Shown piece after piece: positions 1-19,237 of a stretch of 64,000 nucleotides of DNA (positions within the stretch are counted from its first letter, which is position 1; every line of letters starts with the position of its first letter). Below the pieces are notes generated by a model, which saw nothing but the letters and a program-made list of their open reading frames with translations, had not been told where the DNA came from and did not search any database. The translations under genes and the position numbers were made by a program. Source of the DNA: Asanoa siamensis (GTDB lineage Bacteria; Actinomycetota; Actinomycetes; Mycobacteriales; Micromonosporaceae); assembly GCF_016862555.1 (NCBI RefSeq), contig NZ_BONE01000011.1:1-64000 (forward strand), written 5' to 3'.

Positions 1-879
1 ACGATCACCTTGCCGGCAACGGGAATGGCTACGCCGAGCAGCGGCGCGAACCAGAACTGCTCAAGGGTCTGCTACACGAACTCTCCTCAACTCGACGCGA
101 TCTTGGCGGTCGAGCCGATGCGCGACGACTCAATTCGAACGAAACAGCCCCTGCTGCCACCCACGCGGTGAGAGCGGTGGGTCGGCTGAGTCCGTTGGCT
201 AGCGGCGCCTCGGGACATCAGTGGCCCAATTACTGGCCTCCCTATGAGGGATTGCCTTCCTCGAGGGCTAACACCAGCCTGCGGAGCATTCCCACGAGAT
301 CAGTAATGCGCGAAAGGCCCTGCGATCTGTTCCAGCCACGAGCCACGAGCGGGGTAGGGCACCCCGCCACCGTGTTGGCGATGGTGAGCGAACCTTCCGA
401 CATCTTTGCCGCGGGCATTTGCACGTGTTCCTGGGGGCGCTCCAGCAGATCGTCAGGGACCAGCACCGATGCGGCTACCTACGCGACCGGCAATTCGTCC
501 GGAAACAGCGACCTGGAGCGAACCGACTGCGCACGCAGCACTGCGCACACACGCCGTAGCGCGAAGCTCGTCGCCTCGGGCGACGTCATCGTCAAGCGCC
601 CTCTAGCGCCTCTAGCGCCTCCCCGCGTATCTCAAGCGGCTGCCGTATCCTTATCCACTCCGCGACACCCCGATCATTCCGATAGAGGCCATGAGTAAAC
701 CGAGCCTCGTCCCGCTCGGCTGAGGAATTCAACTCGCTCAAAGCTCTGCCGTGTGATCGTCCCCGGCGACGAACACCCGACGTAACGAAACCTCAGGGGC
801 AGAACGCGAGATAGGGCTTGCCCGCGCTGAACGCCGTGCGCAGCTCGGTCTCCCAGGTGATCCGGCCGTCGTCGTGGGC
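1..879. other. No confident gene; low-coding leading region
   Basis: No convincing gene is seen here. One forward frame stays open from base 3 to 698, but its translation is rich in Ser, Arg and Thr and shows no domain. A reverse frame at 242-466 would give a 74-residue peptide with a more protein-like look (it contains AGCPTPLVARGWNRS and TDLVGMLRRLV), but it has no clear ribosome site and a stop just upstream of its start. It may be a decayed gene or a very small gene. The stretch could hold the 3' end of a gene that starts before the window. No tRNA, terminator or repeat was recognised. Confidence 0.4.
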
Positions 880-1365
880 TCAGCTCATCATCCAGAGCGT
901 CGTGGCCGCGCCCGGGTGGAAGTGGCGGGCGCCCAACTGGGAGACCAGGGCCGGGGAGGCGCGTTCGGCGCTCAGGACCACCGTGTTGATCATTCTGGCT
1001 GCCCACTGCGTCGCCGCGTGGTTGATCCAGTCGATCGGTTCCAGGGGGATCAGCAGCTTGGCCAGCACCGAGGCGCGGTCGCGGTCGCCGGGGATCACCT
1101 GGTAGCTGCCGAAGACCGCTTCCTGGTTGAGGGCGTTCACCCGTTCGTAGCATTTCTCGTCGAGCCAGAACTCCGTCGCCAGGCCGCAGGTCAGCGACAG
1201 GAACGGGTCCTGCTGCGCGCCCAGCTTCGGCGCCAGCAACGAGACCGTGGCGCTGCCGACGATCGCCAGGGCGCGGTGGTCGCCCATCGCGACCTCCTGC
1301 CAGCGACCCGGGTACTGGGCCTCGACCATCGCCTGGGCGAGTTCCATGCCTTCGTCGAGGTTCAT
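880..1365 (-). CDS. Hypothetical protein, 161 residues
   Basis: I do not recognise the family. The protein is soluble, with no signal peptide or membrane segment, and begins with an acidic helix (NLDEGMELAQAMVEAQYPG). It has a mix of helical and hydrophobic segments typical of a compact alpha/beta fold. The ATG at 1363-1365 is preceded on the reverse strand by a GAGGGGA ribosome site at good spacing, which supports this start. It is transcribed away from the RyR-domain gene across a 136-base divergent region that contains a perfect inverted repeat, so the two may share regulation. Function is unknown. It could be an accessory protein of the neighbouring sensor pair, but nothing in its sequence shows this. 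Confidence 0.7.
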   Translation of the reverse strand: MNLDEGMELAQAMVEAQYPGRWQEVAMGDHRALAIVGSATVSLLAPKLGAQQDPFLSLTCGLATEFWLDEKCYERVNALNQEAVFGSYQVIPGDRDRASVLAKLLIPLEPIDWINHAATQWAARMINTVVLSAERASPALVSQLGARHFHPGAATTLWMMS

Positions 1366-1406
1366 CGATTCCCCTCATCGGTGCCTCAGCGCGCGCAGCG
1401 AGTCTC

Positions 1407-1462
1407 CGGTGAGCCGACAGTGATCACAATCCACCGGACGGTCACAGCCGATCGGCTCACCG
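1407..1462. promoter_or_regulatory. Perfect 11-base inverted repeat between divergent genes
   Basis: CGGTGAGCCGA at 1407-1417 is matched exactly by its reverse complement at 1452-1462, with 34 bases between the arms. Within the spacer lies the 8-base palindrome GTGATCAC (1420-1427). The element sits between the divergent 880-1365 gene and the RyR-domain gene starting at 1502. It could be a pair of operator half-sites, a looped repressor site, or a long-loop hairpin in a leader transcript. The assignment as regulatory is inference from symmetry and position. Confidence 0.5.
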
Positions 1463-1501
1463 AAGTGGACGGTGAAGACTGCCGATGCCGGCGGCTAGCA
1501 T

Positions 1502-3223
1502 GTGTCGATGGGGGGTCGCAGCGGTGGGTCCGCGGACGTGCGCCGGCCTCCGGTCGCGCCCGTCTTCTGGCTGACCTTCGCCATCCTCGCGGTGATCTCG
1601 TTCGGCTGCGGGCTGATCGGGCTCGAGCAATATCTCAGCCAGAATCCCGATCTCGGCTACAGCGACCACCCACTGGACGTCCTCTACTACGCCCTCCAAC
1701 TCTTCGTGCTCGGCTCTCCCCCGCTCGACGCCGGCGGCCCGTTCCCGCCGATCCTCGACTTCGCCCGGTTCGCCGCGCCCACCGTCACCGCGTACGCGTT
1801 GATCGAAGCCAGTCGCCTGCTCTTCGCCAGCGAGATCCGCAAGCTCAAGGCCCGCACCGCCCGCGGCCATGTGATCGTCGTCGGCGACAACCTCGTCGCG
1901 ACCACCCTGTCCCGGCGGCTGCGGCAGGCCGGCCACCAGGTGATCATGGTGCCGAGCCGGGCCACGGAGCCCGCGCGGGTCACCGGCGCGGCCCGCGACC
2001 CCGACATCCTGCGCGCCGCCAGCGTCGGCCGCGCCCGGGCCGTCTACGCCTGCACCGACGACAGCGCCGCCAACACCGCGATCGCGCTGGCCGCCGCCCG
2101 GCTTCGCCGCAACGGCACGACCCTGGCGGTGTACGCGCAGGTCGCCGACCCCGAGGTCTGCGCCGCCCTGCAGGCCCGGCTGCTCAGCGCCCCGCCCCGG
2201 CACGGCACCCGCCTCGACTTCTTCAACATCGACGATCTCGCCGCCCGGCACCTGGTGGCCCGCGAGCCCGTCACCGTGCCCGGCGCCCGGCCGCCGACGA
2301 TCGCGATCCTGGGCGCGACGGCGTTCGGGCGCGCCGTCTTGGTGGAACTCGCCCGGCAGTGGCGCATCCGCGACCCGGCCGCCGCGCCGCTGCCGATCGA
2401 GATCATCGACGCCGACGCGACCGCGGCGGTCAACCGCCTCACCGACCGCTACCCGTTCCTGACCAGGATCTGCAAGATCACGCCGCACGACGCCGGCCTC
2501 GAACGGCTGCTCGCCAGCCCGTCCGACGACGGCCCGGTGCCCGACCGTGTGTTCATCTGCTACGACGACGAGCAGCAGGCGCTCAAGGCGGCCCTGACCG
2601 CCGAGCAGGTCTGGCCCGGCGAGCCCGGCTCGGTGGTCGTCCGGCTGGACCGCCTGGCCAGCCTCCGCGAGGCGTTCGACGGTGGCGACCGGGTGCTCGA
2701 TGAGCTGTCCGGCACGCTGCGGCTGTTCGGCGTCGTGCACGCCGCCTGCGACCCGGCGCTGATCGGCGACGACCTGGTCGAGCGGCTGGCCCGGGTGATC
2801 CACGAGCGCTACGTCCTGGACGTGTCGGGCCGCGGCGGCGACACGCCCGCGCTCGTTCCCTGGGAGGACCTGCCCGACCGGCTCAGGCTGACCAACCGCG
2901 CCCAGGCCGAGGACATCGGTCGCAAGCTGCGGGCGATCGGCTGCACGCTCTCGCCGCGCGTCGGTCCCGGGCGGGCGCACACGCTGACCGACGACGAGAC
3001 CGAGCGGCTGGCGGTCATGGAGCACGAGCGCTGGCGGCGCGACCGGGCCGCGCAGGGCTGGCGGTACGCGGCCGAGCGCGACGACGAGCACCGGCTGCAC
3101 CCGGCGATGGCGGCCTGGCCGGCGCTGCGCGACGAGATGCGTAACCGCAACCTCGACGAAATCCGCCAGCTCCCGGCTATTCTCGCGGATGCCGGCTTCA
3201 GGATCGTCCGGCTCCGGGCGTAG
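1502..3223 (+). CDS. Membrane TrkA-N/RyR-domain sensor protein
   Basis: The 573-residue protein has three parts. Residues about 22-44 and 88-110 are membrane helices flanking a short amphipathic segment, a two-helix channel-like layout without a potassium selectivity filter. Two consecutive Rossmann-like TrkA-N/RCK units follow, starting at GHVIVVGDN (about 121) and TIAILGATAFGRAVL (about 266). The C-terminus (about 500-570) matches the RyR domain, with the signature MEHERWRRDRAAQGW. In bacteria, RyR and TrkA-N/KTN units occur in proteins predicted to sense nucleotides or other small ligands, often beside SLOG proteins. A SLOG-type gene follows here after 8 bases, so the two probably form an operon. 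Start is GTG 1502 or ATG 1508; no strong ribosome site decides. Domain calls are firm; ligand and output are unknown. Confidence 0.85.
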   Translation: MSMGGRSGGSADVRRPPVAPVFWLTFAILAVISFGCGLIGLEQYLSQNPDLGYSDHPLDVLYYALQLFVLGSPPLDAGGPFPPILDFARFAAPTVTAYALIEASRLLFASEIRKLKARTARGHVIVVGDNLVATTLSRRLRQAGHQVIMVPSRATEPARVTGAARDPDILRAASVGRARAVYACTDDSAANTAIALAAARLRRNGTTLAVYAQVADPEVCAALQARLLSAPPRHGTRLDFFNIDDLAARHLVAREPVTVPGARPPTIAILGATAFGRAVLVELARQWRIRDPAAAPLPIEIIDADATAAVNRLTDRYPFLTRICKITPHDAGLERLLASPSDDGPVPDRVFICYDDEQQALKAALTAEQVWPGEPGSVVVRLDRLASLREAFDGGDRVLDELSGTLRLFGVVHAACDPALIGDDLVERLARVIHERYVLDVSGRGGDTPALVPWEDLPDRLRLTNRAQAEDIGRKLRAIGCTLSPRVGPGRAHTLTDDETERLAVMEHERWRRDRAAQGWRYAAERDDEHRLHPAMAAWPALRDEMRNRNLDEIRQLPAILADAGFRIVRLRA

Positions 3224-3231
3224 GAGGCCGT

Positions 3232-3702
3232 ATGCCGCGGATCGGTGTCACCGGGCACGTGCGGCTCGCCGATGGGACGGCTGAGCTCGTGTACGCGGCG
3301 CTGAGCGCGACCCTGGCGACCCACGACGGCCCGCTGCACGGGGTGACCTGCCTCGCCGACGGCGCCGACCAGCTCTTCGCGCGCGCGGTGGCCGCCCTCG
3401 GCGGCACGTTCGAGGTGGTGCTGCCGGCGGCCGACTACCGCACCGTGGTCGACGACCGCGAGAGCTTCGACGACCTGCTGGGCAAGGCGATCCGGGTCGA
3501 CTACCTGCCGTACGCGCGATCGGACGCGGCCGCCTACTTCGCCGCCAGCGACGAGTTGCTCAACCGGGTCGACCACCTCATCGCGGTCTGGGACGGCGTC
3601 GCGTCCGACGTGGTCAGCAGCACCGCCCACGTGGTCCGCACCGCCCGCGACCGGGGGCTCCCGGTGACGGTGATCTGGCCGGCAGGTGCACGGCGCGCCT
3701 GA
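3232..3702 (+). CDS. SLOG (LOG/DprA-like) Rossmann protein
   Basis: This 156-residue protein opens with PRIGVTGHVRL, then shows CLADGADQLFARAV (about 40-53) and DHLIAVWDG (about 113-121). This order of a Gly-rich first strand, a GAD-type acidic motif and a late Asp-Gly strand end is that of the SLOG superfamily (SMF/DprA, LOG, TRPM-LSDAT). These proteins bind or process nucleotides, NAD derivatives or related ligands. There is no membrane segment, so it should be cytosolic. The preceding stop and the GGAGG-like GTAGGAGGCC site sit just upstream of ATG 3232, which supports co-translation with the RyR-domain protein. It may make, cleave or sense the ligand read by the RyR protein. That pairing is inferred from family context, not proven. 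Confidence 0.75.
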   Translation: MPRIGVTGHVRLADGTAELVYAALSATLATHDGPLHGVTCLADGADQLFARAVAALGGTFEVVLPAADYRTVVDDRESFDDLLGKAIRVDYLPYARSDAAAYFAASDELLNRVDHLIAVWDGVASDVVSSTAHVVRTARDRGLPVTVIWPAGARRA

Positions 3703-3762
3703 GTTCTGTCCGGTCGCCGACAGGTTTGCCCGTTGTTCATCGAAGTCGGTTCACCATGCGCC

Positions 3763-4335
3763 ATGAACCTCAGTCCACTGGTCATCGCGGTCATCGTGAT
3801 CGCGGTAGTTGCCGTGCTGGTCCTGATCTGGGCCATCCGCACGTTCAACGTCCTGGTCCGCCAGCGCAACCAGGTCCGGGCTTCCTGGGCGCAGATCGAC
3901 GTCCAGCTCAAGCGCCGCCACGACCTGGTGCCGAACCTGGTGGAGACCGTCAAGGGGTACGCGGGCCACGAGCGCGGCACGCTCGACGCGGTCGTCGCGG
4001 CCCGGGCCGGCGCCATGGCCGCCGGCGGCTCGGTCGACCGGCGCGCCGACGCCGAGAACATGCTGACCCAGACGCTGGGCCGGCTCTTCGCGCTCGCCGA
4101 GGCGTACCCGGACCTCAAGGCGAACCAGAACTTCCTCGCGCTGCAGAGCGAACTCGCCAACACCGAGGACAAGATCGCGTACGCCCGGCAGTTCTACAAC
4201 ACGGCCGTGCAGGCGCTGGACAACACCGCCCACTCGTTCCCGAGCCTGTTCGTGGCCGGCGCCACCGGGATCAAGCCGCCGGGCTACTTCCAGGCGTCGG
4301 GCGGCGAGCAGGCCCCGGTCCAGGTCCGGTTCTGA
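3763..4335 (+). CDS. LemA family membrane-anchored protein
   Basis: The 190-residue protein has one N-terminal membrane helix (about 5-24, VIAVIVIAVVAVLVLIWA). A helical LemA domain follows, with the signatures RNQVRASWAQIDVQLKRRHD, LVPNLVETVKGY and a later NTEDKIAYARQFYN. LemA proteins are four-helix-bundle proteins held at the membrane; their biochemical role is not settled. I start at ATG 3763 because it leaves the membrane helix at the very N-terminus. An upstream ATG at 3733 would add ten polar residues. The gene ends 7 bases before a DUF2207-like gene, a partner often found next to LemA, so the two probably act together in the envelope. Confidence 0.92.
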   Translation: MNLSPLVIAVIVIAVVAVLVLIWAIRTFNVLVRQRNQVRASWAQIDVQLKRRHDLVPNLVETVKGYAGHERGTLDAVVAARAGAMAAGGSVDRRADAENMLTQTLGRLFALAEAYPDLKANQNFLALQSELANTEDKIAYARQFYNTAVQALDNTAHSFPSLFVAGATGIKPPGYFQASGGEQAPVQVRF

Positions 4336-4342
4336 CCGAGCC

Positions 4343-6232
4343 ATGTCCCTGACCATCGCGATCGCCGTCGCCGTTGCGGCGACGGCGGCCTGGGCCGGGC
4401 TCTACGGCCTGATCCTCCTGATCACCCGGTCGTCGCTCCCGACGCCGGCACCGGCCACCATGGACCTCGGCCCCGAGCCGCCCGCCGTGGTGAACCTGCT
4501 CGCCAACCGCTGGACCCGCCCCGACGAGGACGCCGCCGAGGCGACCCTGCTGGACCTGGCCGGGCGCCGCTTCTACGAGATCCGGCAGCCGGGGGACGAC
4601 CCGGTGCACAGCACGATCCACCTGCCGGGCACGCCGCCGTCCGACGCCGCGCTGCTGCCGTTCGAGCAACGGATGCTCGGGCGGATCCGGGCGGCGGCGG
4701 TCGGCGGCGTGGTGCCGCTGACCGCGCTGACGTTCCGCGACGCGGGCCAGGCCCGGGGCTGGCGGCGGCGGTTCGACGCCGAGGTGGTCGCCCACGCCCG
4801 CCGGCTCGGCCTGTCCCGCCGCCGGATCAGCCCGGCGCAGGTGGCGCTGCTGACGACCACCGCGCTCGTCCCGTCGCTGGCGATCGCCTTCGCCGTCGGG
4901 CAGCAGATCGAGCGGCACGCCGCGCCGGAGGACAAGGGCGGCGGCTATGCCGCCATGGTCATGCTGACCATCGTCCTGATGTCGACGTTCGGCCTTCTCT
5001 CCGGGCGTTACCGCGGTGACCGGTCGACTCCGGCGGGCCGTGCGGTCGCCGCGCGTTGGCTGGGCGTACGCGACTGGTTGGACGGTCATGACGCGTTCGC
5101 GGACCTGCCGCCGGCCGCGGTGATGGTCTGGGACCGCTACCTCGGGTACGGGGCCGCGGTGCACGTGGCACACGCCGCGACCGCCGCGCTCGACCTCGGG
5201 ATGGGGTCGAGATATCTCGTCTGGTCCTCGTACGGCGGCCACTGGCGCAGGGTCAAGGTGCGCTACCCGCGCGTGCTCGACCGCTACGGCCAGACCACGA
5301 AGACGCTGGTCAAGGGCGGGGTGATCCGCCTGGTGATCGGCGCGGTGCTCGCGGGCGTCGCCCGTACCCTGCCGAACGTGGTGCCGACGGAGCTCGGCCC
5401 GCTGGACAGCTCGTACAGCGGCGACGACATCTCGACCTTCACCTCGCCCACCCGGCTCATCGCGGCGGCGCTGGCGACGCTGTTCATCGTGTGGGGCCTC
5501 TACCGGATCGTCCGCGCGACCGTCGACCACCACACCCCGGTGGAGATCACCGGCGAGGTGCTCTGGATCGAGGTCTGGCGCTCGGCGTCGCAGGGCGAGG
5601 ACAGCCCGTCGATCCCGTGGCTGCACCATTACGCGGTCGACGACGGCACCGCGGACCGCACGGTGGCGTGGGGCCTGCCGTCGGAGTGGTCGGGCCGCTC
5701 GTCCCCCGGCGACGTGGTGCGCTTCTCGGTGCGGCGCTGGAGCCGGCGCGTGGTCGCGCTGACGGTGGTGCGCGAAGGCGGCGGGCGTTCGCTGCACCGC
5801 GGTTTCGACACCACGGACAACACCGACAACCTGGTGCTGGAAGCACTGGGGGAACGCAAGCGCGGGGCGGCGCCGGTCGCGATCCGGGACCAGGCGGCGA
5901 CCGCGGTGCTGTCCGCGGAGGACCTGGCCCGGGCGATCGGCGCCCCGATCAAGGTCCGGGAGATCGGCCCGCTCAACGGGCTGTACGAGACGATGGACGG
6001 CAAGCCGGTCGCCATGATCCAGATGCAGCGCGGCACGATGGCGAAGATGTGGTGGGCGGCGGCGAAGCGCGGCACCCCGGTCCCCGGCATCGGCGACGAG
6101 GCCTTCATGTCGGAAACAGGCGGCGCGATTCGCAAGGGCGACGCGGTGGTCATCCTGGTCCTCCACCGCGGCGGCCGCGTCGCGGCACCGCACCTCCCGT
6201 GGTTGCTCGGCCAGGTCGCGACGCGGCTCTGA
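4343..6232 (+). CDS. DUF2207-like integral membrane protein
   Basis: The 629-residue protein has a membrane helix at the N-terminus (about 4-27), a pair near 175-225, and two more near 325-345 and 370-392. Long soluble parts lie between and after them. The layout of an N-terminal anchor, an extracytoplasmic region and central helices fits the DUF2207 membrane proteins that accompany LemA. The C-terminal third (about 400-629) is soluble and contains a beta-rich stretch. The start ATG 4343 follows the LemA stop by 7 bases, indicating an operon. It converges with the XRE gene, whose stop lies only 4 bases away. Function is unknown; the family assignment rests on layout and neighbour rather than on a catalytic motif. 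Confidence 0.75.
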   Translation: MSLTIAIAVAVAATAAWAGLYGLILLITRSSLPTPAPATMDLGPEPPAVVNLLANRWTRPDEDAAEATLLDLAGRRFYEIRQPGDDPVHSTIHLPGTPPSDAALLPFEQRMLGRIRAAAVGGVVPLTALTFRDAGQARGWRRRFDAEVVAHARRLGLSRRRISPAQVALLTTTALVPSLAIAFAVGQQIERHAAPEDKGGGYAAMVMLTIVLMSTFGLLSGRYRGDRSTPAGRAVAARWLGVRDWLDGHDAFADLPPAAVMVWDRYLGYGAAVHVAHAATAALDLGMGSRYLVWSSYGGHWRRVKVRYPRVLDRYGQTTKTLVKGGVIRLVIGAVLAGVARTLPNVVPTELGPLDSSYSGDDISTFTSPTRLIAAALATLFIVWGLYRIVRATVDHHTPVEITGEVLWIEVWRSASQGEDSPSIPWLHHYAVDDGTADRTVAWGLPSEWSGRSSPGDVVRFSVRRWSRRVVALTVVREGGGRSLHRGFDTTDNTDNLVLEALGERKRGAAPVAIRDQAATAVLSAEDLARAIGAPIKVREIGPLNGLYETMDGKPVAMIQMQRGTMAKMWWAAAKRGTPVPGIGDEAFMSETGGAIRKGDAVVILVLHRGGRVAAPHLPWLLGQVATRL

Positions 6233-8112: not shown

Positions 8113-8430
8113 CGCCGCTCTGGGCATCACCCACATCCAACGGGTCATGACCGACAACGCCCTGGCCTACCGCCGCGGCCGCGCCTGGCACCAAGCCCTG
8201 ACCGACCTCGGCGCCCAAGCCCGGTTCACCCGCCGCTACCGACCCCAAACCAACGGAAAAGCCGAACGCTTCAACCGCGCCATGTGCGACGAATGGATCT
8301 ACGCCCGACCCTTCACCACCAACCGAGACCGCGCCGACGCCCTACCTCACACACCTACCACCACCACCGCGGACACACCGGCCAACCACCCATCACCCGC
8401 GTCAACAGCGCTCCTGGTGCTTACAGCTAG
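8113..8430 (+). pseudogene. IS481-type transposase remnant (C-terminal part, frameshifted)
   Basis: The frame reads GITHIQRVMTDNALAYRRG, then RYRPQTNGKAERFNRAM and DEWIYARPF. This is the C-terminal part of the rve integrase core of IS481-family transposases, including the Asp of MTDN and the Glu of GKAERFN. At about 8350 the frame slips. A second frame continues with YHHHRGHTGQPPITRVNSA and a stop at 8428-8430, which is the family's usual C-terminus. The N-terminal half, with the HTH and first catalytic Asp, is missing, and no inverted terminal repeats were found. This is a dead fragment, evidence of past transposition into the repeat-rich patch. Confidence 0.85.
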
Positions 8431-8584
8431 TGCTGTCGCGAGCGCTACCCATCGCGAGTGCCGCCTCACCGCTACCGCGACCGTCACCAGGACCGCCGCC
8501 GCCGCCAACGCCGCCCAGCCGTGAGTGCCGCCGGGCCGCCACCGCTACCGGGACCTCCGCCCACCGCGAGCGCCGCGGCCGGCG
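8431..8584. repeat. Degenerate GC-rich repeat patch (right part)
   Basis: This continues the low-complexity material seen at 7781-8112, with motifs such as GTCGCGAGCGCTACC, CTACCGCGACCG and CACCGCGAGCGCCGC. It lies between the stop of the IS481 remnant and the 3' end of the PIN-toxin gene. The shared composition on both sides of the remnant suggests one original repeat tract split by the insertion, or repeat expansion after it. Confidence 0.55.
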
Positions 8585-8958
8585 TCAGACGGCGAGCGTC
8601 GCCACGTCGTAGCGCATGATCTCCGGGTCGCGCGTCACCACGGTCAGGCCCTCGACGATGGCCTGCGCGACCAACATGCGATCGAAGGGGTCTCGGTGGT
8701 ACGCGGGCAGCCTGCCGGCGAGCGTCGCGTGCGCGCTGGTGATCGGAAGATCCCGAAATCCCATGTCGCATACGCGTTCGGCGGGATCGACAGGACCCTT
8801 GAGCTTGCCGAGATTCTGCTTGATGGCGATTTCCCAGATAGTGACCGGGCTGAGGTAGATCTCGGGATCATGCCGGAGCCGGTCGAGCATCTCGTCGCTC
8901 AACTCGGGGTCGGCTGCCAGGCCCACAGGACGACATGTGTGTCGAGGAGAACGCTCAC
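8585..8958 (-). pseudogene. PIN-domain (VapC-like) toxin, one-base frameshift
   Basis: From a GTG at 8958 the frame reads VSVLLDTHVVLW, the classic N-terminus of a PIN-domain nuclease with its first catalytic Asp. It then runs off frame at about 8920. One base later the correct frame resumes with LAADPELSDEML, SPVTIWEIAIK (second acidic site), DPFDRMLVAQA (third) and TVVTRDPEI. Restoring one G:C pair near 8920-8921 would give a normal 125-codon gene. PIN toxins cleave RNA and are held by a cognate antitoxin; the upstream gene overlaps by 4 bases (GTGA). The frameshift lies in a short C run, so it may be a real inactivating mutation or a base-calling error. Confidence 0.8.
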
Positions 8959-9211
8959 GCCGAAAGCCCGAAGTCCGCGGCGATGTCAGCGTTGGTCTCC
9001 GGCGAGTCCCAGTCGTCGGCGAAGTCGATCTGCCCGGCAAGCGAGCCCACGGCCGCGCGATCGACCGTGCGGCGCAACGGATGATCTTCGCGACAGGAGT
9101 GCCGGCACGATCGATGATGATCTCCTCGCCGCGCTGCACCCGCTCGATGATCCGAGACGGATGCGTCTTCGCGTCGTGCATGTTGAAGTGCTCTGCGGCG
9201 TCGGCAGACAT
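8955..9211 (-). pseudogene. Phd/YefM-type antitoxin, one-base frameshift
   Basis: The ATG at 9211 starts NMHDAKTHPSRIIERVQRGE and DRAGTPVAKII, the DNA-binding and dimerisation half of a Phd/YefM antitoxin. After AKII the frame slips. With one extra C near 9079-9080 it would continue LRRTVDRAAVGSLAGQIDF and end NADIAADFGLSA with a stop at 8955-8957. That C-terminal half is the toxin-neutralising region. The total length fits an 85-residue protein after correction. It overlaps the PIN toxin by GTGA, the normal coupling of such pairs. Both members thus carry the same kind of one-base loss in C runs, which makes either joint decay or a systematic indel error possible. Confidence 0.8.
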
Positions 9212-9351: not shown

Positions 9352-11295
9352 TCAGGCGACCATCGAGCCGACGACCGGCTTGGTCAGCAGGGCCGACTGG
9401 TTGCGGGTGATGCCCGGGTCCAGCGTCCGGGCCACGAAGATCGCGTGCCAGATGCAGAAGATCAGGACTGTCCAGACCTTGCGGGAGTTGTCGACCTCGC
9501 CCTTCTTGTGCTCGTCGAGCAGGCGCAGCGCGTAGTTCAGGTCGATCAGGTCCCCGGCCGACGAGTTGGCGATGATCCAGCGCGCCCACTCGTACATCTC
9601 GCCCGCCAGCCAGACGCGGGTCGGGGTCGGGAAGCCCAGCTTCTTGCGGTTGACGATCGCCGGCGGCACCACGCCCTGGAGTGCCTGGCGCATCGCCCAC
9701 TTCGTCGCGTCCGAGCGCGGCGGGAGGCGCAGCTCGACCGGGATCCGGGACGCCACGTCGAAGACCTCGCGGTCCAGGAACGGGACGCGGACCTCCAGCG
9801 AGTGCGCCATCGAGATGCGGTCGGCCTTGACCAGGATGTCGCCGCGCAGCCAGGTGTACAGGTCGATGTACTGCATCTTCGTGACGTCGTCGAGGTCCGG
9901 GACCTCCGCGTAGATCGGCGCCGTCACGTCCGTGTAGCGCACCGACGGGTCGTACCGGCGCAGCAGTGACTGCTTCTCCTCCTCGGTGAACATCCGCGCG
10001 TTGCCGTAGTAGCGCTCCTCCAGCGGCGTCGTGCCCCGCTCGAGGAAGCTCTTGCCCTTCACGCCCTGCGGGATGACCTTGGACATCGCCCGCAGGCCCT
10101 TCTGCATGCCGTCGGGCAGGCCGTTGACCGCCGACAGCGACAAGGGCTCGCGGTAGATCGTGTAACCACCGAAGAACTCGTCGGCACCCTCACCCGAGAG
10201 CACCACGGTCACGTGCTCGGCAGCCTTCTGGGCCACGAAATACAGGGGTACGAGGGCCGGGTCCGCGACCGGGTCGTCGAGGTGCCAGACGATCCGCGGG
10301 AGCGCCTCCATCATGTCCTGCGGCCCGATCTTGGTCGGGATCGTGGTCACCTCGAGGTGCCGCGCCGAGTCCTGGGCGACCTCGATCTCCGAGTAGCCCG
10401 GCACGTCGTACCCGACGGTGAAGGTCAGGATGTTGGGGTTGAACTGCCGTGCCAGCGCGACCACCGCGGTGCTGTCGATGCCGCTGGAGAGGAACGCGCC
10501 GACCGGCACGTCGGAGCGCATGTGCAGGCGCACGCTCTCGCGCAGGGTCTCGCGGATCTCGGTGAACAGGCGCTCCTGGTCGGGGACGGGCGCCGGGTTG
10601 AAGACGGGGCGGTACCAGCGGCGGACCTCGACCGGGTAGCCGGGCACCCAGTTGAGGCACTCGCCCGAGCCGATCCGGGAGATGCCCTGGTGCAGGGTGC
10701 CGGGCTCGGGCACATATTGCAGCGTCAGGTAGTGCGACAGGTTGGCCGTGTCGACGCCCGCGTCGCCGGCGTGCGCGGCGGGCGCGAAGGGGAGCAGCGC
10801 CTTCTTCTCGGAGGCGAGATAGACACCGTCGACGGTCTGGAGATAGAACATCGGCTTGATGCCGAAGTAGTCGCGGGCGCCGAACGCCCGGCGCTCCTGG
10901 CGGTCCCAGATCACGAACGAGAACATGCCGCGCAGGCGGGTCAGCACCTTCTCGCCCCAGTAGTGGTAGCCGGCGACGATCACCTCGCCGTCACCCTGGG
11001 TGGCGAACGTGGCACCGTAGTCGCGGGCCAGCTCCTCGCGCAGCTCGATGTAGTTGTAGATCTCGCCGTTGAAGGTCAGCAGGTAGCGCCCGCCCGCGTA
11101 GGGCAGCGGCTCGTGGCTGAAGGCCACGTCGATGATCGAGAGCCGCTTGTGGGCGAACACCGCGTCCTGCCCGATCACCTCGACGCCGGTCTCGTCGGGG
11201 CCCCGGTGGTGAAGGCTTTCCAGCGCTGCGGCGATCGCGTCGCGGTGGGCGCCGGCCGCGCCGTGCGCACTGAAGAAGGCCAGGATTCCGCACAT
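9352..11295 (-). CDS. asnB: Asparagine synthase (glutamine-hydrolysing)
   Basis: The 647-residue enzyme transfers glutamine nitrogen to an AMP-activated aspartate. The start ATG 11293-11295 gives MCGILAFF, so Cys2 becomes the N-terminal nucleophile of the class II glutaminase domain (residues about 2-210, with RGPDE and NGEIYNY). The synthetase domain carries the PPi loop LSSGIDSTAVVA and GEGADEFFGGY, and later DRISMAHSLEVRVPFLD. An in-frame ATG three codons upstream would bury Cys2 and is rejected. Length fits the longer actinomycete AsnB/AsnH type. It stands alone on its strand, with a hairpin terminator downstream and a divergent peptidase gene upstream. It could serve general asparagine supply or amidation of a cell-wall or secondary-metabolite precursor; general supply is the default. 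Confidence 0.95.
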   Translation of the reverse strand: MCGILAFFSAHGAAGAHRDAIAAALESLHHRGPDETGVEVIGQDAVFAHKRLSIIDVAFSHEPLPYAGGRYLLTFNGEIYNYIELREELARDYGATFATQGDGEVIVAGYHYWGEKVLTRLRGMFSFVIWDRQERRAFGARDYFGIKPMFYLQTVDGVYLASEKKALLPFAPAAHAGDAGVDTANLSHYLTLQYVPEPGTLHQGISRIGSGECLNWVPGYPVEVRRWYRPVFNPAPVPDQERLFTEIRETLRESVRLHMRSDVPVGAFLSSGIDSTAVVALARQFNPNILTFTVGYDVPGYSEIEVAQDSARHLEVTTIPTKIGPQDMMEALPRIVWHLDDPVADPALVPLYFVAQKAAEHVTVVLSGEGADEFFGGYTIYREPLSLSAVNGLPDGMQKGLRAMSKVIPQGVKGKSFLERGTTPLEERYYGNARMFTEEEKQSLLRRYDPSVRYTDVTAPIYAEVPDLDDVTKMQYIDLYTWLRGDILVKADRISMAHSLEVRVPFLDREVFDVASRIPVELRLPPRSDATKWAMRQALQGVVPPAIVNRKKLGFPTPTRVWLAGEMYEWARWIIANSSAGDLIDLNYALRLLDEHKKGEVDNSRKVWTVLIFCIWHAIFVARTLDPGITRNQSALLTKPVVGSMVA

Positions 11296-11407
11296 GCCGG
11301 CCATCTTTTCACGTGTCGCCGACCGCCCGGCCGCCTCCCATCGGAATCGGGTCGCGTGGCGGGGTAGCGTGTCGTGGAACGCGATCAATGGGGAGGCGGC
11401 AGCGGTG

Positions 11408-12916
11408 ATGGGTGACGAGACGACCGAGCCCGTGATGAGCGAGAGCACGGCCAAGGTCGAGGCCCACGATCCGGGCTTCCCGCCGAAGTTCCTCGAGTTC
11501 ATGCGCTCCGGCTGGGCCGAGGACTCGCTGGCCGTGCAGCCCTCCACGGGGTCGCCCCGCTACGCGCAGCGACGGGCCGCGCTGTCCGAGCAGTTCCCCG
11601 GCGAGACGCTGGTGATTCCCACCGGGCGGGAGAAGACCCGGGCCAACGACACCGACTACCCGTTCCGCGCGGGCAGCGACTTCGCGTACCTGACCGGTGA
11701 TCTCGACCCCGACAGCGTGCTGGTGCTGCACCCGGTCGGCGACGGGCACGATGCGGTGCTGTACACGAAGCCGCGCAACTCCCGCGAAACGGACGACTTC
11801 TTCCGCAGCCGCGACGGTGAGCTGTGGGTCGGCCGCCGGGCGACGCTGACCGAGAAGACCTCCGAGCTGGGCGTCGAGACGGCGGTCCTGAGCGACCTGT
11901 GGCCGACGCTGGCCGACTGCGCGCCGCGCCGCACGCGGGTGCTGCGGGGCTTCGACCCGGAGGTGGACGCGGCGGTGCTGCCGTGGACCGAACGGGACGA
12001 GAAGGACCAGAAGGCACGGGACGGGCGTACGCGGGACCAGGAGCTGGCCACGGCGATCGCCGAGCTGAAGCTGGTCAAGGACCCGTGGGAGATCGAGCAG
12101 CTCCAGGACGCGATCGACGCGACGGTTCGCGGCTTCGAGGACGTCGCCCGGGTGCTGCCGGCCGATCGCGGGGTCCGGGAGCGGCTGATCGAGGGCGTCT
12201 TCGGCCTGCGGGCCCGCTACGAGGGCAACGACCTGGGCTACAGCTCGATCGTCGGCGCCGGCCGGCACGCCACGATCCTGCACTGGATCCGCAACGACGG
12301 CATGACGGTGCCGGGCGAGCTCCTGCTGATGGACATGGGCGTCGAGAACCGCAACCTCTACACCGCGGACGTCACGCGTACGGTCCCGGTCTCGGGCAGG
12401 TTCAGCCCGCTGCAGCGCGACGTGTACGACATCGTCCACCGCTCGCAGCAGGCGGGCATCGACTTCATCAAGCCGGGCGTGAAGTTCGAGGACATCCACC
12501 TGACCTGCATGCGCGTGCTGGCCGAGGGGCTGGCCGACCTCGGCGTGCTCCCGGTCAGCGTCGACGAGGCGATGGACCCGACCTCCACGATCTACCGCCG
12601 CTGGACGCTGCACAGCTTCGGCCACATGCTGGGCATCGACGTCCATGACTGCTCGCAGGCCCGCAAGGAGAACTACCGCGACGGCGTGGTGGCGGAGAAC
12701 TACGTGCTCACGGTCGAGCCGGGCCTCTACTTCCAGGCCGAGGACGAGCTGGTCCCGGCCGAGCTGCGCGGCATCGGCGTCCGCATCGAGGACGACGTCC
12801 TGGTGACGGCCACGGGCACCCGGGTGATGTCCGCGGGCCTGCCGCGCTCGTCGGCGGAGGTCGAGTCCTGGCTGGACGCCCAGCGCGCCGCCGGGCCGCG
12901 CATCCCGGGCGCCTGA
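11408..12916 (+). CDS. pepP: Xaa-Pro aminopeptidase (aminopeptidase P)
   Basis: The 502-residue metalloprotease removes N-terminal residues preceding proline. The N-terminal AMP_N domain (about 45-190) is followed by a pita-bread catalytic domain. The dinuclear-metal ligands are visible as MDMGVENRNLYTADVTRTVP (two Asp), HSFGHMLGIDVHD (His), TVEPGLYF (Glu) and IGVRIEDDVLVT (Glu). I use ATG 11408, with GGGGAGG a dozen bases upstream; an in-frame start at 11294 would overlap asnB and adds non-conserved sequence. It is divergent from asnB. A strong hairpin follows the stop. The protein is cytosolic, as no signal peptide is present. Confidence 0.94.
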   Translation: MGDETTEPVMSESTAKVEAHDPGFPPKFLEFMRSGWAEDSLAVQPSTGSPRYAQRRAALSEQFPGETLVIPTGREKTRANDTDYPFRAGSDFAYLTGDLDPDSVLVLHPVGDGHDAVLYTKPRNSRETDDFFRSRDGELWVGRRATLTEKTSELGVETAVLSDLWPTLADCAPRRTRVLRGFDPEVDAAVLPWTERDEKDQKARDGRTRDQELATAIAELKLVKDPWEIEQLQDAIDATVRGFEDVARVLPADRGVRERLIEGVFGLRARYEGNDLGYSSIVGAGRHATILHWIRNDGMTVPGELLLMDMGVENRNLYTADVTRTVPVSGRFSPLQRDVYDIVHRSQQAGIDFIKPGVKFEDIHLTCMRVLAEGLADLGVLPVSVDEAMDPTSTIYRRWTLHSFGHMLGIDVHDCSQARKENYRDGVVAENYVLTVEPGLYFQAEDELVPAELRGIGVRIEDDVLVTATGTRVMSAGLPRSSAEVESWLDAQRAAGPRIPGA

Positions 12917-14568: not shown

Positions 14569-15749
14569 ACCGGCGCGCCACCGGGCACCTGCCCGGGCCG
14601 CCCGTGCACCACGGGACCCACACGAAGCTGTTGCGGCTGGTGCCCGACGTATCCGGGCTGCCGGCGCGGCCGGTCGACGCGATCATCGTGCCGACCGCGC
14701 GCCCGTCCGCCTATCTCCGTTCGGCCATGCAGGTGGCGCACGCGCTCGACAGCCCGCTGTTGGCCCTCTGCAGCAAATACGCGCAGGCGCAGGAGGTCAT
14801 GGACGAGGCCGTCGCCGCGGGCAAGAACGTGATCGCGGTTGACGTGACGCCGGCGGGTGGCCTCCCGGACATGGCGACCTCGAAGCGGCTCGCGGGCACG
14901 CGGTTCGAGCGCAGGACCGACACCAGCTACAAGCGCAACGTCGGCCTCGCGGTCGCGCGCATGTCGGGGTGGCGCAACGTGGTGTTCCTCGACGACGACA
15001 TCGCGGTCGACGATCCCGATCACCTGCTGGCCGCGTCGGCGCTGCTGGAGACGTTCGACGCGGTGGGCCTCGCGAACCACGGGTTCGCCGACAACTCCGT
15101 GGTGTGCCACGCGCGTCGCGCGGTCGGCTACCAGCAGGACAGCTTCGTCGGGGGCGGTGCGATGGCCGTTCCGGCCCACCGTACGAGGTCGTTCTTCCCC
15201 AACATCTACAACGAGGACTGGTTCTTCCTGCTGAGCGCGACGAAGCTCAGCACCGTCGGCGTCACCGGACGCGTCGTGCAGAAGCCCTTCGACCCCTACG
15301 CCGACCCGCGGCGGGCGCGGTCCGAGGAGTTCGGCGACTGCCTGGCCGAAGGCATCTTCGCCCTGCTCGACCAGGGTCGCCGGGTCCAGGACGCCAACGA
15401 GGAGTTCTGGGCGGGCTTCCTGGCGAACCGGCGCGAGCTCGTCGCCGACGTGCTCGCCCGCCTGCCGGAGACCGCGTGCTCCTCGGCGGGCGAGCGGACC
15501 CGCATGATCGAGGCCATGACCGCCGCGCAGGGCCGGCAGAAGTGGATCACGCCGGAGCTCTGCACCAGCTATCTCCGGGACTGGACGCTCGACCGGACCC
15601 GTTGGCAACGCTTCATCGGCGGGCTGCCCACGCTTCCGACCGCGGAGGCGCTCGGGTTCCTGGGCTTCAAGCCCACGGCCGCCGACGCCTACCGGTCCCG
15701 CGGCGTCCCGGCTACAGCTCGTCGATCAGGTCCGCGACCGAGTCGATGA
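14565..15749 (+). CDS. Glycosyltransferase-like protein with DDD motif
   Basis: The protein (about 394 residues) contains VDAIIVPTARP near the N-terminus and NVVFLDDDIAVDD at about 138-150. This is the DXD-type metal/nucleotide-sugar site of GT-A fold glycosyltransferases, preceded by the TSYKRNVGLAVAR stretch usual in GT2-like enzymes. YNEDWFFLL further on resembles the acidic acceptor-side ED motif of such enzymes. No membrane helix is seen. I start at GTG 14565, which gives a 4-base overlap with the HTH gene; ATG 14547 is an alternative. The last 38 bases overlap the convergent HAD gene. Substrate is unknown. Confidence 0.75.
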   Translation: MNRRATGHLPGPPVHHGTHTKLLRLVPDVSGLPARPVDAIIVPTARPSAYLRSAMQVAHALDSPLLALCSKYAQAQEVMDEAVAAGKNVIAVDVTPAGGLPDMATSKRLAGTRFERRTDTSYKRNVGLAVARMSGWRNVVFLDDDIAVDDPDHLLAASALLETFDAVGLANHGFADNSVVCHARRAVGYQQDSFVGGGAMAVPAHRTRSFFPNIYNEDWFFLLSATKLSTVGVTGRVVQKPFDPYADPRRARSEEFGDCLAEGIFALLDQGRRVQDANEEFWAGFLANRRELVADVLARLPETACSSAGERTRMIEAMTAAQGRQKWITPELCTSYLRDWTLDRTRWQRFIGGLPTLPTAEALGFLGFKPTAADAYRSRGVPATARRSGPRPSR

Positions 15750-16491
15750 TGCGGCTCGGGCGGTAGGGGTAGCGTTCCGCCTCCGCGCGGGTGCTGATGC
15801 CCGTCAGCACCAGGATCGTCTCCAGGCCCGCCTCCAGACCGCAGAGGATGTCGGTGTCCATGCGGTCGCCGATCATCGCCGTGCTCTCCGAATGGGCGTT
15901 GATCGTGTTGAGCGCCGAGCGCATCATCATCGGGTTCGGCTTGCCCACGAAGTAGGGCGTGACGCCCGTCGCCTTCTCGATCATCGCGGCCACCGAGCCC
16001 GCCGCCGGGAGGGCGCCCTCGGTCGACGGGCCCGTCGGGTCCGGGTTGGTGCAGATGAAGCGGGCGCCGTCGTTGATCAGGCGGACGGCCTTCGTGATGG
16101 CCTCGAACGAGTAGGTCCGCGTCTCGCCCAGGACCACGTAGTCGGGCGCGTAGTCCGAGAGCACGTAGCCCACCGCGTGCATCGCCGTGGTCAGGCCGGC
16201 CTCACCGATCACGTACGCGGAGCCGCCGGGGCGCTGGTCGGAGAGGAACTGGGCCGTGGCCAGCGCCGCGGTCCAGATCGACTCCTCCGGCACGTGCAGG
16301 TCCATCCGGGCGAGCCGGGCCTGCAGGTCGCGTGGCGTGTAGATCGAGTTGTTGGTCAGCACCAGGAACGGCTTGCCGCTCGCGCGCATCGTGCGGACGA
16401 AGTCCGGCGCACCGGGCACCGGCTGGCCCTCGTGGATGAGCACGCCGTCCATGTCGGTCAGCCAGCTCTCGATCGCCTTGCGGTCGCTCAT
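15712..16491 (-). CDS. HAD-superfamily phosphatase, NagD-like
   Basis: The 259-residue enzyme has the HAD motifs WLTDMDGVLIHEG (motif I, Asp nucleophile), FLVLTNNS (motif II), VGKPNP (motif III Lys) and IGDRMDTDI (motif IV). The C2-type cap lies between motifs II and III. The closest family is NagD/p-nitrophenylphosphatase, which dephosphorylates small sugar phosphates and nucleotides. ATG 16489-16491 overlaps the stop of the ferrochelatase gene by 4 bases, so it belongs to the same leftward operon. Its 3' end overlaps the convergent glycosyltransferase-like gene by 38 bases. Confidence 0.92.
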   Translation of the reverse strand: MSDRKAIESWLTDMDGVLIHEGQPVPGAPDFVRTMRASGKPFLVLTNNSIYTPRDLQARLARMDLHVPEESIWTAALATAQFLSDQRPGGSAYVIGEAGLTTAMHAVGYVLSDYAPDYVVLGETRTYSFEAITKAVRLINDGARFICTNPDPTGPSTEGALPAAGSVAAMIEKATGVTPYFVGKPNPMMMRSALNTINAHSESTAMIGDRMDTDILCGLEAGLETILVLTGISTRAEAERYPYRPSRIIDSVADLIDEL

Positions 16492-17531
16492 GATGACGGT
16501 CTCCTGGCCGGTGGCGTGCAGCAGTCGACGGGGCACGTGTCCCAGGCGGGGAGCGTACCCAGGCGTTGTTTCGAGTCGGCGCCGTCCATCCGCTCCTGGA
16601 CGAGATCGCGCACCATCGCGACGAAGCGCGGGTCGGTGCCGGGGGTCGCCGCGCGTACGAAGTCGAGGTTGCGGCTCTTCGCCGTCGCGGCCGCCTCGTT
16701 GTCGAGGTCCCAGATCACCTCGAGGTGGTCGGAGACGAAGCCGATCGGGCTGACCACCACACCGGTCACGCCGGTGTCGGCGAGCGCGGCCAGGTGGTCG
16801 TTGACGTCGGGCTCCAGCCACGGCACCTGCGGCGGCCCGGAGCGGCTCTGCCAGACCAGGTCCCACGGCAGGTCGGGCGCCGCCGCCGCGGCGACCAGGG
16901 CGGCCGTCTCGCGGAGCTGGGCGACGTAGCGGCCCGGGGGAGCGACGGGCGGCGGGCCCGCGGTCGTGGCCATCGACGTCGGGATCGAGTGGGCGGTGAA
17001 CACCAGCCGGGTCGTCGACCGGCGGGCCGGGTCGAGCGTGTCGAGGGCCGTCCGGACCGCGTCGGCGTGGGGCTCGACGAAGCCCGGGTGGTCGGCGAAG
17101 TGCCGCAGCTTCTCGATCACGGGGGCGCCTTCGCCGACGGTGGCGCGGGCCTTCGTGATGTCCTCGAGGTACTGCCGGCACGACGAGTAGCCGCCGTACG
17201 CGCTGGTCACGAACGCCAGGGCGCGGCGCACGCCGTCGGCCTTCATCGTGGCCACCGTGTCGGCCAGCATCGGATCCCAGTTGCGATTGCCCCAGTAAAC
17301 CGGGAGGGACAGCCCGTTGGCGGCGAAATCGGCACGGATCGCCGCCAGCAGGTCGCGGCACTGCTGGTTGATCGGCGACACGCCGCCGAAGTGGTTGTAG
17401 TGCTCGGCGACCTCGGCGAGGCGTTCCGGCGGGACGCCCCGGCCCCGGGTGACGTTCTCCAGGAACGGAATCACGTCTTCCGGGGCTTCGGGGCCACCGA
17501 ATGAAACCAGGACCAATGCGTCGTACGGCAT
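16488..17531 (-). CDS. hemH: Ferrochelatase (coproporphyrin III type expected)
   Basis: The 347-residue enzyme inserts ferrous iron into a porphyrin. Actinobacterial members act on coproporphyrin III (CpfC). Visible are the N-terminal DALVLVSFGGPE, HYNHFGGVSPIN, FVTSAYGGYSSCRQY, the catalytic-His segment FTAHSIPTSM and the Glu-bearing SDHLEVIWDLDNEA. Cysteines near the C-terminus (TCPVDCCTP) may ligate a 2Fe-2S cluster, as in other actinobacterial ferrochelatases. I use ATG 17529-17531; an upstream in-frame ATG at 17597 would run into fabI. The order fabG-fabI-hemH matches the mabA-inhA-hemZ cluster of mycobacteria. Confidence 0.95.
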   Translation of the reverse strand: MPYDALVLVSFGGPEAPEDVIPFLENVTRGRGVPPERLAEVAEHYNHFGGVSPINQQCRDLLAAIRADFAANGLSLPVYWGNRNWDPMLADTVATMKADGVRRALAFVTSAYGGYSSCRQYLEDITKARATVGEGAPVIEKLRHFADHPGFVEPHADAVRTALDTLDPARRSTTRLVFTAHSIPTSMATTAGPPPVAPPGRYVAQLRETAALVAAAAAPDLPWDLVWQSRSGPPQVPWLEPDVNDHLAALADTGVTGVVVSPIGFVSDHLEVIWDLDNEAAATAKSRNLDFVRAATPGTDPRFVAMVRDLVQERMDGADSKQRLGTLPAWDTCPVDCCTPPARRPSS

Positions 17532-17553
17532 CAGACGATTGTGCCCTGTGCGA

Positions 17554-18336
17554 TCAGATCGACGCGGCCTCGGCTCCCAGTGCGTGATATCCGCCATCGA
17601 CGTGGATGATCTCGCCGGTGGTCGCCGGGAACCAGTCGGAGACGAGCGCGAGCACGGCCCGCGCCGCCGGCTCCTGGTCCTGCAGGTCCCAACCGAGCGG
17701 CGCCCGCCGGGTCCACGCGTCCTCGAACTGCTCGAAGCCCGGGATCGACTTGGCGGCCATCGTGCGCAGCGGGCCGGCCGAGACCAGGTTGCTGCGGATG
17801 CCCTGCTTGCCGAGGTGCAGCGCCAGATATCGCGACGCCGACTCGAGGCCCGCCTTGGCGACGCCCATCCAGTCGTAGACCGGCCACGCCTTGGTCGCGT
17901 CGAAGGTGAGCCCGACGACCGACGAGCCGCGCCGCATCAGCGGCAGGGCCGCCATGGCCAGGGACTTGTAGGAGTACGTGGACACGTGCAGCGCGGTCGC
18001 CACGTCGTCCCAGGTGGTCTCGAGGAAGTTGCCGCCGAGCGCGCTGGCGGGCGCGAAGCCGATCGAGTGCACCAGGCCGTCGATGCCGTCCATGTGCTTG
18101 CCGACCTTCTCGGCCAGCGTCTCGAGGTGCTCCTGGTTGGTCACGTCGAGCTCGATCACCGGCGCCTCGGCGGGCAGCCGCTTGGCGATCCGCTCGACCA
18201 GCGACATGCGGCCGAAGCCGGTCAGCACGACGGTCGCGCCGTTCTCCTGGGCCAGCTTCGCGACCGAGAACGCGATCGACTGGTCGGTGATCACGCCGGT
18301 GACCAGGAGTCGCTTGCCCTCCAGCAGTCCTGCCAC
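17554..18336 (-). CDS. fabI: Enoyl-[acyl-carrier-protein] reductase (NADH)
   Basis: The 260-residue short-chain dehydrogenase-fold enzyme carries out the last reduction of type II fatty acid elongation. It has the InhA/FabI-specific nucleotide motif LVTGVITDQSIAFSVA (residues about 11-26) and FDATKAWPVYDWMGVAKAGLE with the active Tyr and Lys spaced as in InhA. VDGGYHALGA closes the fold. The start is a GTG at 18334-18336 with AGAAAGG upstream. It follows fabG by 30 bases and precedes hemH. FabI/InhA enzymes are the targets of isoniazid and triclosan in other bacteria. Confidence 0.95.
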   Translation of the reverse strand: MAGLLEGKRLLVTGVITDQSIAFSVAKLAQENGATVVLTGFGRMSLVERIAKRLPAEAPVIELDVTNQEHLETLAEKVGKHMDGIDGLVHSIGFAPASALGGNFLETTWDDVATALHVSTYSYKSLAMAALPLMRRGSSVVGLTFDATKAWPVYDWMGVAKAGLESASRYLALHLGKQGIRSNLVSAGPLRTMAAKSIPGFEQFEDAWTRRAPLGWDLQDQEPAARAVLALVSDWFPATTGEIIHVDGGYHALGAEAASI

Positions 18337-18366
18337 GGTGCACGCCTTTCTAGGTTGTGGGAACGC

Positions 18367-19119
<753 letters not shown>

Positions 19120-19120
19120 C

Positions 19121-19179
19121 TACCCGGGGGTACGGCTAATTCGCCTCGCCCGGGTGGCCATCCTCATACCCGGGTATGA
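19121..19179. promoter_or_regulatory. Two TACCC/GGGTA palindromes between fabG and kinase
   Basis: A perfect 16-base palindrome TCATACCCGGGTATGA lies at 19164-19179. A related element, TACCC-GG-GGGTA, lies at 19121-19132; the two centres are 45 bases apart. They sit between the start of fabG (reverse) and the start of the histidine kinase at 19238 (forward). Shared half-site TACCC suggests one dimeric regulator binding both, perhaps the adjacent LuxR-type response regulator or a fatty-acid regulator. Operator function is inferred. Confidence 0.6.
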
Positions 19180-19237
19180 CATCCGGGATGGCTCTCCAGC
19201 GGCACGCGGGGTGTCGTACCCCGCGCGTAGCCTCCGG

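Follow-up and report, generated by a model that had tools for sequence, protein, structure and literature searches.

A candidate RCK-gated, RyR-bearing channel protein paired with a SLOG-fold protein in Asanoa siamensis and its relatives

Introduction

Channels gated by RCK units, such as GsuK, MthK and Slo, share a two-helix pore with a re-entrant helix that feeds those units. Here we describe a gene pair of the soil actinomycete Asanoa siamensis whose first product is predicted to follow the same plan, but lacks the TVGYG filter and carries an RyR domain added at its C-terminus. The pair lies in a 64 kb stretch that begins at the first base of its contig (the whole stretch analysed, hereafter the window). 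It consists of P1, a 573-residue protein with a two-helix pore module, tandem RCK (TrkA-N) units and an RyR domain (1502..3223, + strand), and P2, a stand-alone SLOG-fold protein of 156 residues (3232..3702, + strand). Our leading reading, held tentatively and at a little less than an even chance, is that P1 is a nucleotide-gated channel answering an ADP-ribose-type signal, with the SLOG protein as its detachable regulatory subunit.

Animal ryanodine receptors are very large Ca2+ channels without RCK units, and whether cyclic ADP-ribose (cADPR) acts on them directly is an old question. Their Repeat12 (R12), one of many domains in these proteins, resembles the P1 domain in its fold, in the His/Trp/His pocket residues of its repeat 1 and in an Asn at the position of a catalytic Asp of phage proteins. 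For the plant nuclear channels CASTOR and DMI1 we know of no RyR domain, and their pore sequence differs from that of P1. TRPM2 likewise links a SLOG-like module to an ion channel, but this is a different channel, both parts form one chain and RyR is absent. Thoeris comprises the SLOG protein ThsA and the TIR protein ThsB; in the window, by contrast, the SLOG is a separate protein, the effector is channel-like and no TIR gene was found, although TIR genes adjoin the channel in some relatives. Networks of TPR-S, LSDAT and RelA domains, reportedly described in Burroughs 2015, have a counterpart beside P1 in a relative (L194, below) rather than in the window. Among the literature matches listed, none describes a bacterial RyR-RCK channel or its pairing with SLOG or TIR; Burroughs 2015 may cover RyR/SLOG links. 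Phage RyDEP shares with P1 a PF02026 domain and the spacing of its pocket residues, but is, according to a preprint, a soluble protein of viral origin that removes cADPR by degradation or sequestration, whereas P1 has N550 and a channel; a term search of the preprint's main text finds neither RCK nor SLOG (PMC13232231).

Results

P1, a channel-like protein with an RyR domain

An AlphaFold model places membrane helix M1 at residues 18–47 (1553..1642; all P1 features lie on the + strand), followed by a short pore helix (57–70) and a loop at the filter position (71–82; together 1670..1747), and by the inner helix M2 with its linker (83–119; 1748..1858). Tandem Rossmann/RCK units come next, at about residues 122–258 and 265–422 (1865..2767), giving the predicted order M1, pore helix, M2, RCK of an RCK-gated P-loop channel. 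Pfam TrkA_N matches the first unit above cut-off (5.2e-10, residues 124–220), profile matches of the RCK region include TrkA (8.6e-17), GsuK (9.5e-15) and MthK (4.2e-5), and in fold comparison GsuK and Slo1 resemble P1 across both its membrane and RCK parts.

The pore stretch is contained in 88 of 91 distinct P1 sequences, some of which are partial. In all 88, distant lineages included, residues 66–68 read QLF (QLFVL in 67) and residue 89 is Arg; Glu102 and Arg105 are each kept in 81. None has a GYG or GFG filter, and the window's P1 reads VLGSPP at the filter position. To judge from these sequences, the membrane region appears constrained like a pore, but one without a K+ filter.

The RyR domain, at about residues 424–573 (2771..3220), is recognised by Pfam (PF02026, 1.1e-13 at residues 500–568; 51.7 bits against a gathering cut-off of 27.4), by a PDB sequence match and by its Repeat12 clamshell fold. 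P1 therefore has the composition proposed in the first-pass annotation, namely two membrane helices, two Rossmann/TrkA-N units and a C-terminal RyR domain, and its description of the membrane part as channel-like without a potassium filter holds as well.

What might this domain bind? The May 2026 preprint on phage RyDEP reports that domains of the RyR type are able to bind isomers of cADPR: those of phages either bind 2′/3′cADPR or cleave it, with H75 and D117 acting on the ribose, W78 holding the adenine and H100 the phosphates, and six of eight RyDEP homologs tested bind 2′/3′cADPR, none of them cleaving it (PMC13232231). Human R12 is reported to hold ADP or AMP-PCP with Trp881, Arg885 and Arg896 (RyR1 numbers; PMC12627627). 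With roles taken from these two sources, the pocket residues of P1 are, by alignment position, H508, W511, R515, R526, H533 and N550 (3023..3151). Three of the four RyDEP ligand residues (H75, W78, H100) are kept at identical spacing as H508, W511 and H533; of the catalytic His-Asp dyad (H75, D117) of a RyDEP-type glycosidase, however, only the His is present, N550 replacing the Asp. On these residues, P1 qualifies as a candidate cADPR binder of the RyDEP type. The mapping uses residue spacing, PDB alignments and an ungapped phmmer match of P1 507–548 to residues 75–116 of PDB chain 35tm (E 0.1), which we take to be RyDEP. In the PDB alignments, RyR2 repeats carry Asn at the catalytic-Asp position and a Bacteroides-type R12 chain carries Asp. 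Phage matches to the P1 domain are all weak (E 0.04 or worse, among the 30 of 74 records listed).

P2, a SLOG-fold partner

P2 follows P1 after eight bases on the same strand, both open reading frames being present, and its likely ribosome-binding site, GGAGG (3223..3227, + strand), overlaps the P1 stop codon TAG (3221–3223); P2 is probably made from the same message. For P1 itself, the in-frame ATG at 1508 (571 residues) is a likelier start than 1502, because two relatives (L003 and L006) have an in-frame stop four codons before the corresponding ATG.

P2 was assigned to SLOG by fold alone, because sequence libraries gave nothing above cut-off. The SLOG Rossmannoid fold is clear in structural comparison, with YpsA and DprA, not LOG, as the closest folds, and ADP-ribose-bound TRPM2 structures match it too. 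NCBIfam has no match to P2; the window protein matches no PDB sequence at E up to 1, its profile yielding just unrelated or marginal ones; and hhalign against five YAcAr proteins gives a probability of 2.5% (RCK control, 0.1%). Placement in a named SLOG family by sequence was rejected, the Pfam matches being below threshold (best YpsA, E 0.016, in 4 of 32 members).

Is the pair kept? In 200 genomes of the window's family (Micromonosporaceae), we collected the best 60 places with a long P1, in 58 genomes (34 weaker ones left out), and 123 places with P2, in 107 genomes (11 weaker ones left out). P2 lies directly 3′ of P1 on the same strand at 45 of the 60. Because most other called neighbours change from genus to genus, the pairing cannot be put down to synteny alone. 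The compact two-gene unit of the first-pass annotation, with a SLOG-type gene eight bases downstream, is borne out by these data, in the case of SLOG through a clear fold match with sequence libraries below cut-off, and its proviso that the two genes be co-conserved agrees with the survey.

TIR genes beside the channel in relatives

Of the 60 P1 places in the family, 37 had their neighbourhoods examined, namely 14 without an adjacent P2 and 23 with one. A TIR domain is encoded within 10 kb at 9 of the 14 loci without P2, in some on the same strand as the channel, an association that the first-pass annotation had not anticipated. These TIR proteins are of two kinds. FxsC/FxSxx_TPR proteins belong to the FxSxx-COOH system and were named by NCBIfam in L075, elsewhere through profiles built from the L075 proteins; L072, L075 and L089 each have P1, FxsC and FxSxx_TPR as consecutive genes on the same strand. 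The other kind combines TIR with repeat domains, as in a clear TIR-WD40 protein (L086) and a 984-residue TIR protein with weak propeller matches (L088). FxsB is found within 10 kb of 9 of the 37 loci; in A. iriomotensis (L101) it is about 5 kb away. The combination of an FxsB radical SAM protein with FxsC/FxSxx_TPR is present beside relatives such as L075 and absent from the window. As proof of function the FxSxx association was rejected, for shared synteny may explain part of it, and the use made of it here is limited to the tightly ordered loci L072, L075 and L089. L195, from a different family of the same phylum, has P1 and TIR open frames that share 29 bases, and in L196 about 0.7 kb separate P1 from a convergent gene for a TIR protein that carries PD40 repeats. 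Together, the TIR-adjacent relatives suggest that an alarm signal of the ADP-ribose type opens a channel in these bacteria.

Further RyR genes accompany P1 in such relatives. Stand-alone Asp-form RyR genes, whose products are possible signal-degrading partners, occur in loci with P1 and TIR-repeat genes (L083:6258-6758, L084:15696-16385, L086:6404-6874). In L194, a ClpB-like AAA gene comes after P1, and the gene divergent to P1 encodes a 902-residue protein (L194:10214-12919) in which RelA_SpoT and RyR pass the cut-off and TPR-S and LSDAT_prok (SLOG) narrowly miss it.

The residue at position 550 was compared between these groups. In 65 distinct P1 proteins paired with P2, Asn stands there 51 times, Cys 10 times, Ala three times, Thr once and Asp never. 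Of 11 proteins that lack an adjacent P2 but have TIR within 10 kb, nine show D and one N, the position being missing in the last; three with FxsB only have D, S and A; and 12 without P2, TIR or FxsB have D in nine and N in two, with one missing. Asp550 is thus seen in 0/65 P2-paired proteins versus 19/24 lettered proteins without an adjacent P2.

Discussion

Possible mechanism

What could be the function of this gene pair? As modelled, P1 would be a presumably tetrameric, RCK-gated ion channel without a K+ filter. Its RyR clamshell may bind an adenine-nucleotide signal, to go by the pocket residues most likely a cADPR-like derivative of ADP-ribose. Ligand binding would shift the RCK gating ring and open (or close) the pore, which in turn would alter membrane potential or ion content. 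P2 might read or limit the same signal as a detachable regulatory subunit, by analogy with the SLOG-like part inside the TRPM2 chain. In some relatives, a TIR protein encoded beside the channel in place of P2 would be the likely signal maker. The first-pass annotation had proposed a ligand-gated ion-flux or membrane effector, and this is supported in part. Fold and architecture, conserved pocket residues, gene pairing and the relatives' TIR genes were observed, while ligand, gating, ion, contact between the subunits and any stress or anti-phage purpose are what we infer. A fuller version appears rather unlikely as a whole: a channel gated by a cADPR-type signal, with RyR on an RCK pore opened by a TIR-made signal and a TRPM2-like SLOG acting in trans, in which the Asp-form RyR branch would also cleave the signal and the SLOG-paired branch only sense it.

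In P1, the RyR domain is part of a small, channel-like protein of bacteria that is encoded next to SLOG or TIR genes. If the proposal is true, the debated control of animal ryanodine receptors by cADPR would gain a precedent in bacteria, the cADPR-RyR question could be tested on a 571-residue protein, and TIR immunity would have a new effector class, namely ion flux through an RCK pore. The Asn/Asp split at position 550 would predict which branch only senses the signal and which may also destroy it.

Several observations weigh against a nucleotide-gated channel with a SLOG subunit. Conduction by P1 is conjectural, because hydropathy is strong in M1 only, M2, which carries charged residues, is just moderately hydrophobic (mean 1.06 over residues 84–108), and the loop at the filter position varies. 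Nucleotide binding by human R12 is reported as undetectable by isothermal titration calorimetry in the absence of drug (PMC12627627). Actinoplanes and its allies keep P2 yet have lost H508 and H533, which disfavours one fixed RyR ligand there; 12 of the 65 P2-paired proteins depart from His/Trp/His, and the P1 of L089 has its RyR part split over two frames. No P1 gene directly precedes P2 at as many as 78 of its 123 places. TIR lies within 10 kb at 2 of the 23 P2-paired loci, the remaining 21 being without, and home-built profiles for TIR, FxsB and NB-ARC match nothing in the 64 kb window. The 20 control regions (TIR 0/20, FxsB 0/20, one NB-ARC) were drawn from genomes with P1, nearly all of which have it paired with P2, so the expectation from per-genome TIR counts, 0.44 hits for 15 loci, is the fairer control, its true value being somewhat higher since TIR genes cluster. 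Finally, a statistical association of P2 with the loss of Asp550 was rejected: each trait changes four times on the tree, with no significance in independent pairs, and the association is retained solely as a prediction.

Alternative readings

Slightly less probable than the fuller cADPR scheme is a housekeeping energy sensor, in which P1 would read ATP/ADP or NAD via RCK and RyR, like TrkA or GsuK, and tune the resting ion balance, P2 reporting another purine metabolite and neither having an immune role. This would fit the GsuK and TrkA structures with ADP, NAD and ATP among the best RCK matches, the ATP/ADP analogues reportedly held by RyR R12 (PMC12627627), the presence of P1 in 6/6 sampled genomes of the window's genus, the scarcity of TIR neighbours at P2-paired loci and the LemA and DUF2207 genes 3′ in the window. 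It fits poorly with the TIR and FxSxx association in relatives, with a patchy spread across the phylum (at least 7 of 396 genomes) and with pocket residues that match cADPR-binding phage proteins.

The other two readings concern one partner each. P2 might be an enzyme that makes or destroys the ligand, a functional stand-in for TIR rather than a subunit, and the RyR Asp would then have been lost in P2-paired channels because P2 does the turnover. We consider this improbable: PGGxGTxxE, presumably the motif of LOG phosphoribohydrolases, is absent, as T, V or A rather than Glu stands three positions after T131 in 32/32 aligned P2 proteins; the nearest folds are not LOG; and the tree test just described is not significant. 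More doubtful still is a non-conducting P1, a membrane-anchored RCK-RyR sensor handing its signal to another protein. The missing K+ filter, the variable loop and the charged, moderately hydropathic M2 could be read in this way, but Q66-L67-F68 and R89 are invariant across all 88 sequences, and the GsuK and Slo1 matches span membrane and RCK parts alike.

Distribution

Beyond the family, a sample of 396 genomes of the phylum holds P1 with RCK in at least 7, the window's included (E 1e-20), and P2 in at least 12 (E 1e-8), lower bounds given that few candidates were scored per genome (three for P1). A pattern-based scan of genome contigs returned 58 loci, in Micromonosporaceae and in Myceligenerans/Promicromonospora. 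P2 without P1 was seen at 28 loci (27 distinct, G051 having been fetched twice), 22 from the family sample and 6 from the phylum sample; TIR lies within 10 kb at five of them, and neither RyR nor RCK was found nearby. P1 had no match in the plasmid collection and P2 none in phages. P2-like SLOG genes do occur on actinomycete plasmids (25 matching records, 22 of them from Streptomyces), and three such regions (L250, L251, L252) contain no P1 and no telling neighbours. The window's genome has four TIR_2 matches, of which C23 and C120 are the contigs listed for two, and two FxsC matches below cut-off.

Surrounding genes in the window

LemA and DUF2207_C genes lie 3′ of P2 on the same strand (3763-6232, +). 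The DUF2207-type gene (cluster c12) stands behind P2 in four Asanoa-like loci including the window, and in no other locus compared. On the other side, a divergent 161-residue gene without a Pfam match (883-1365, −) adjoins P1, again in four Asanoa-like loci including the window. Four further Asanoa-like strains offer loci for comparison. With the P1-P2-LemA-DUF2207 block (876-6232) as reference, block 9354-12916 is inverted against these loci, as is block 15712-19442 in the two strains whose loci extend that far. An open reading frame that we read as transposase-like is located at 8147-8524. In a single frame (8588-9211, −), a Phd/YefM antitoxin segment (5.4e-7) precedes a PIN domain (7.5e-12), so that antitoxin and toxin appear to be joined.
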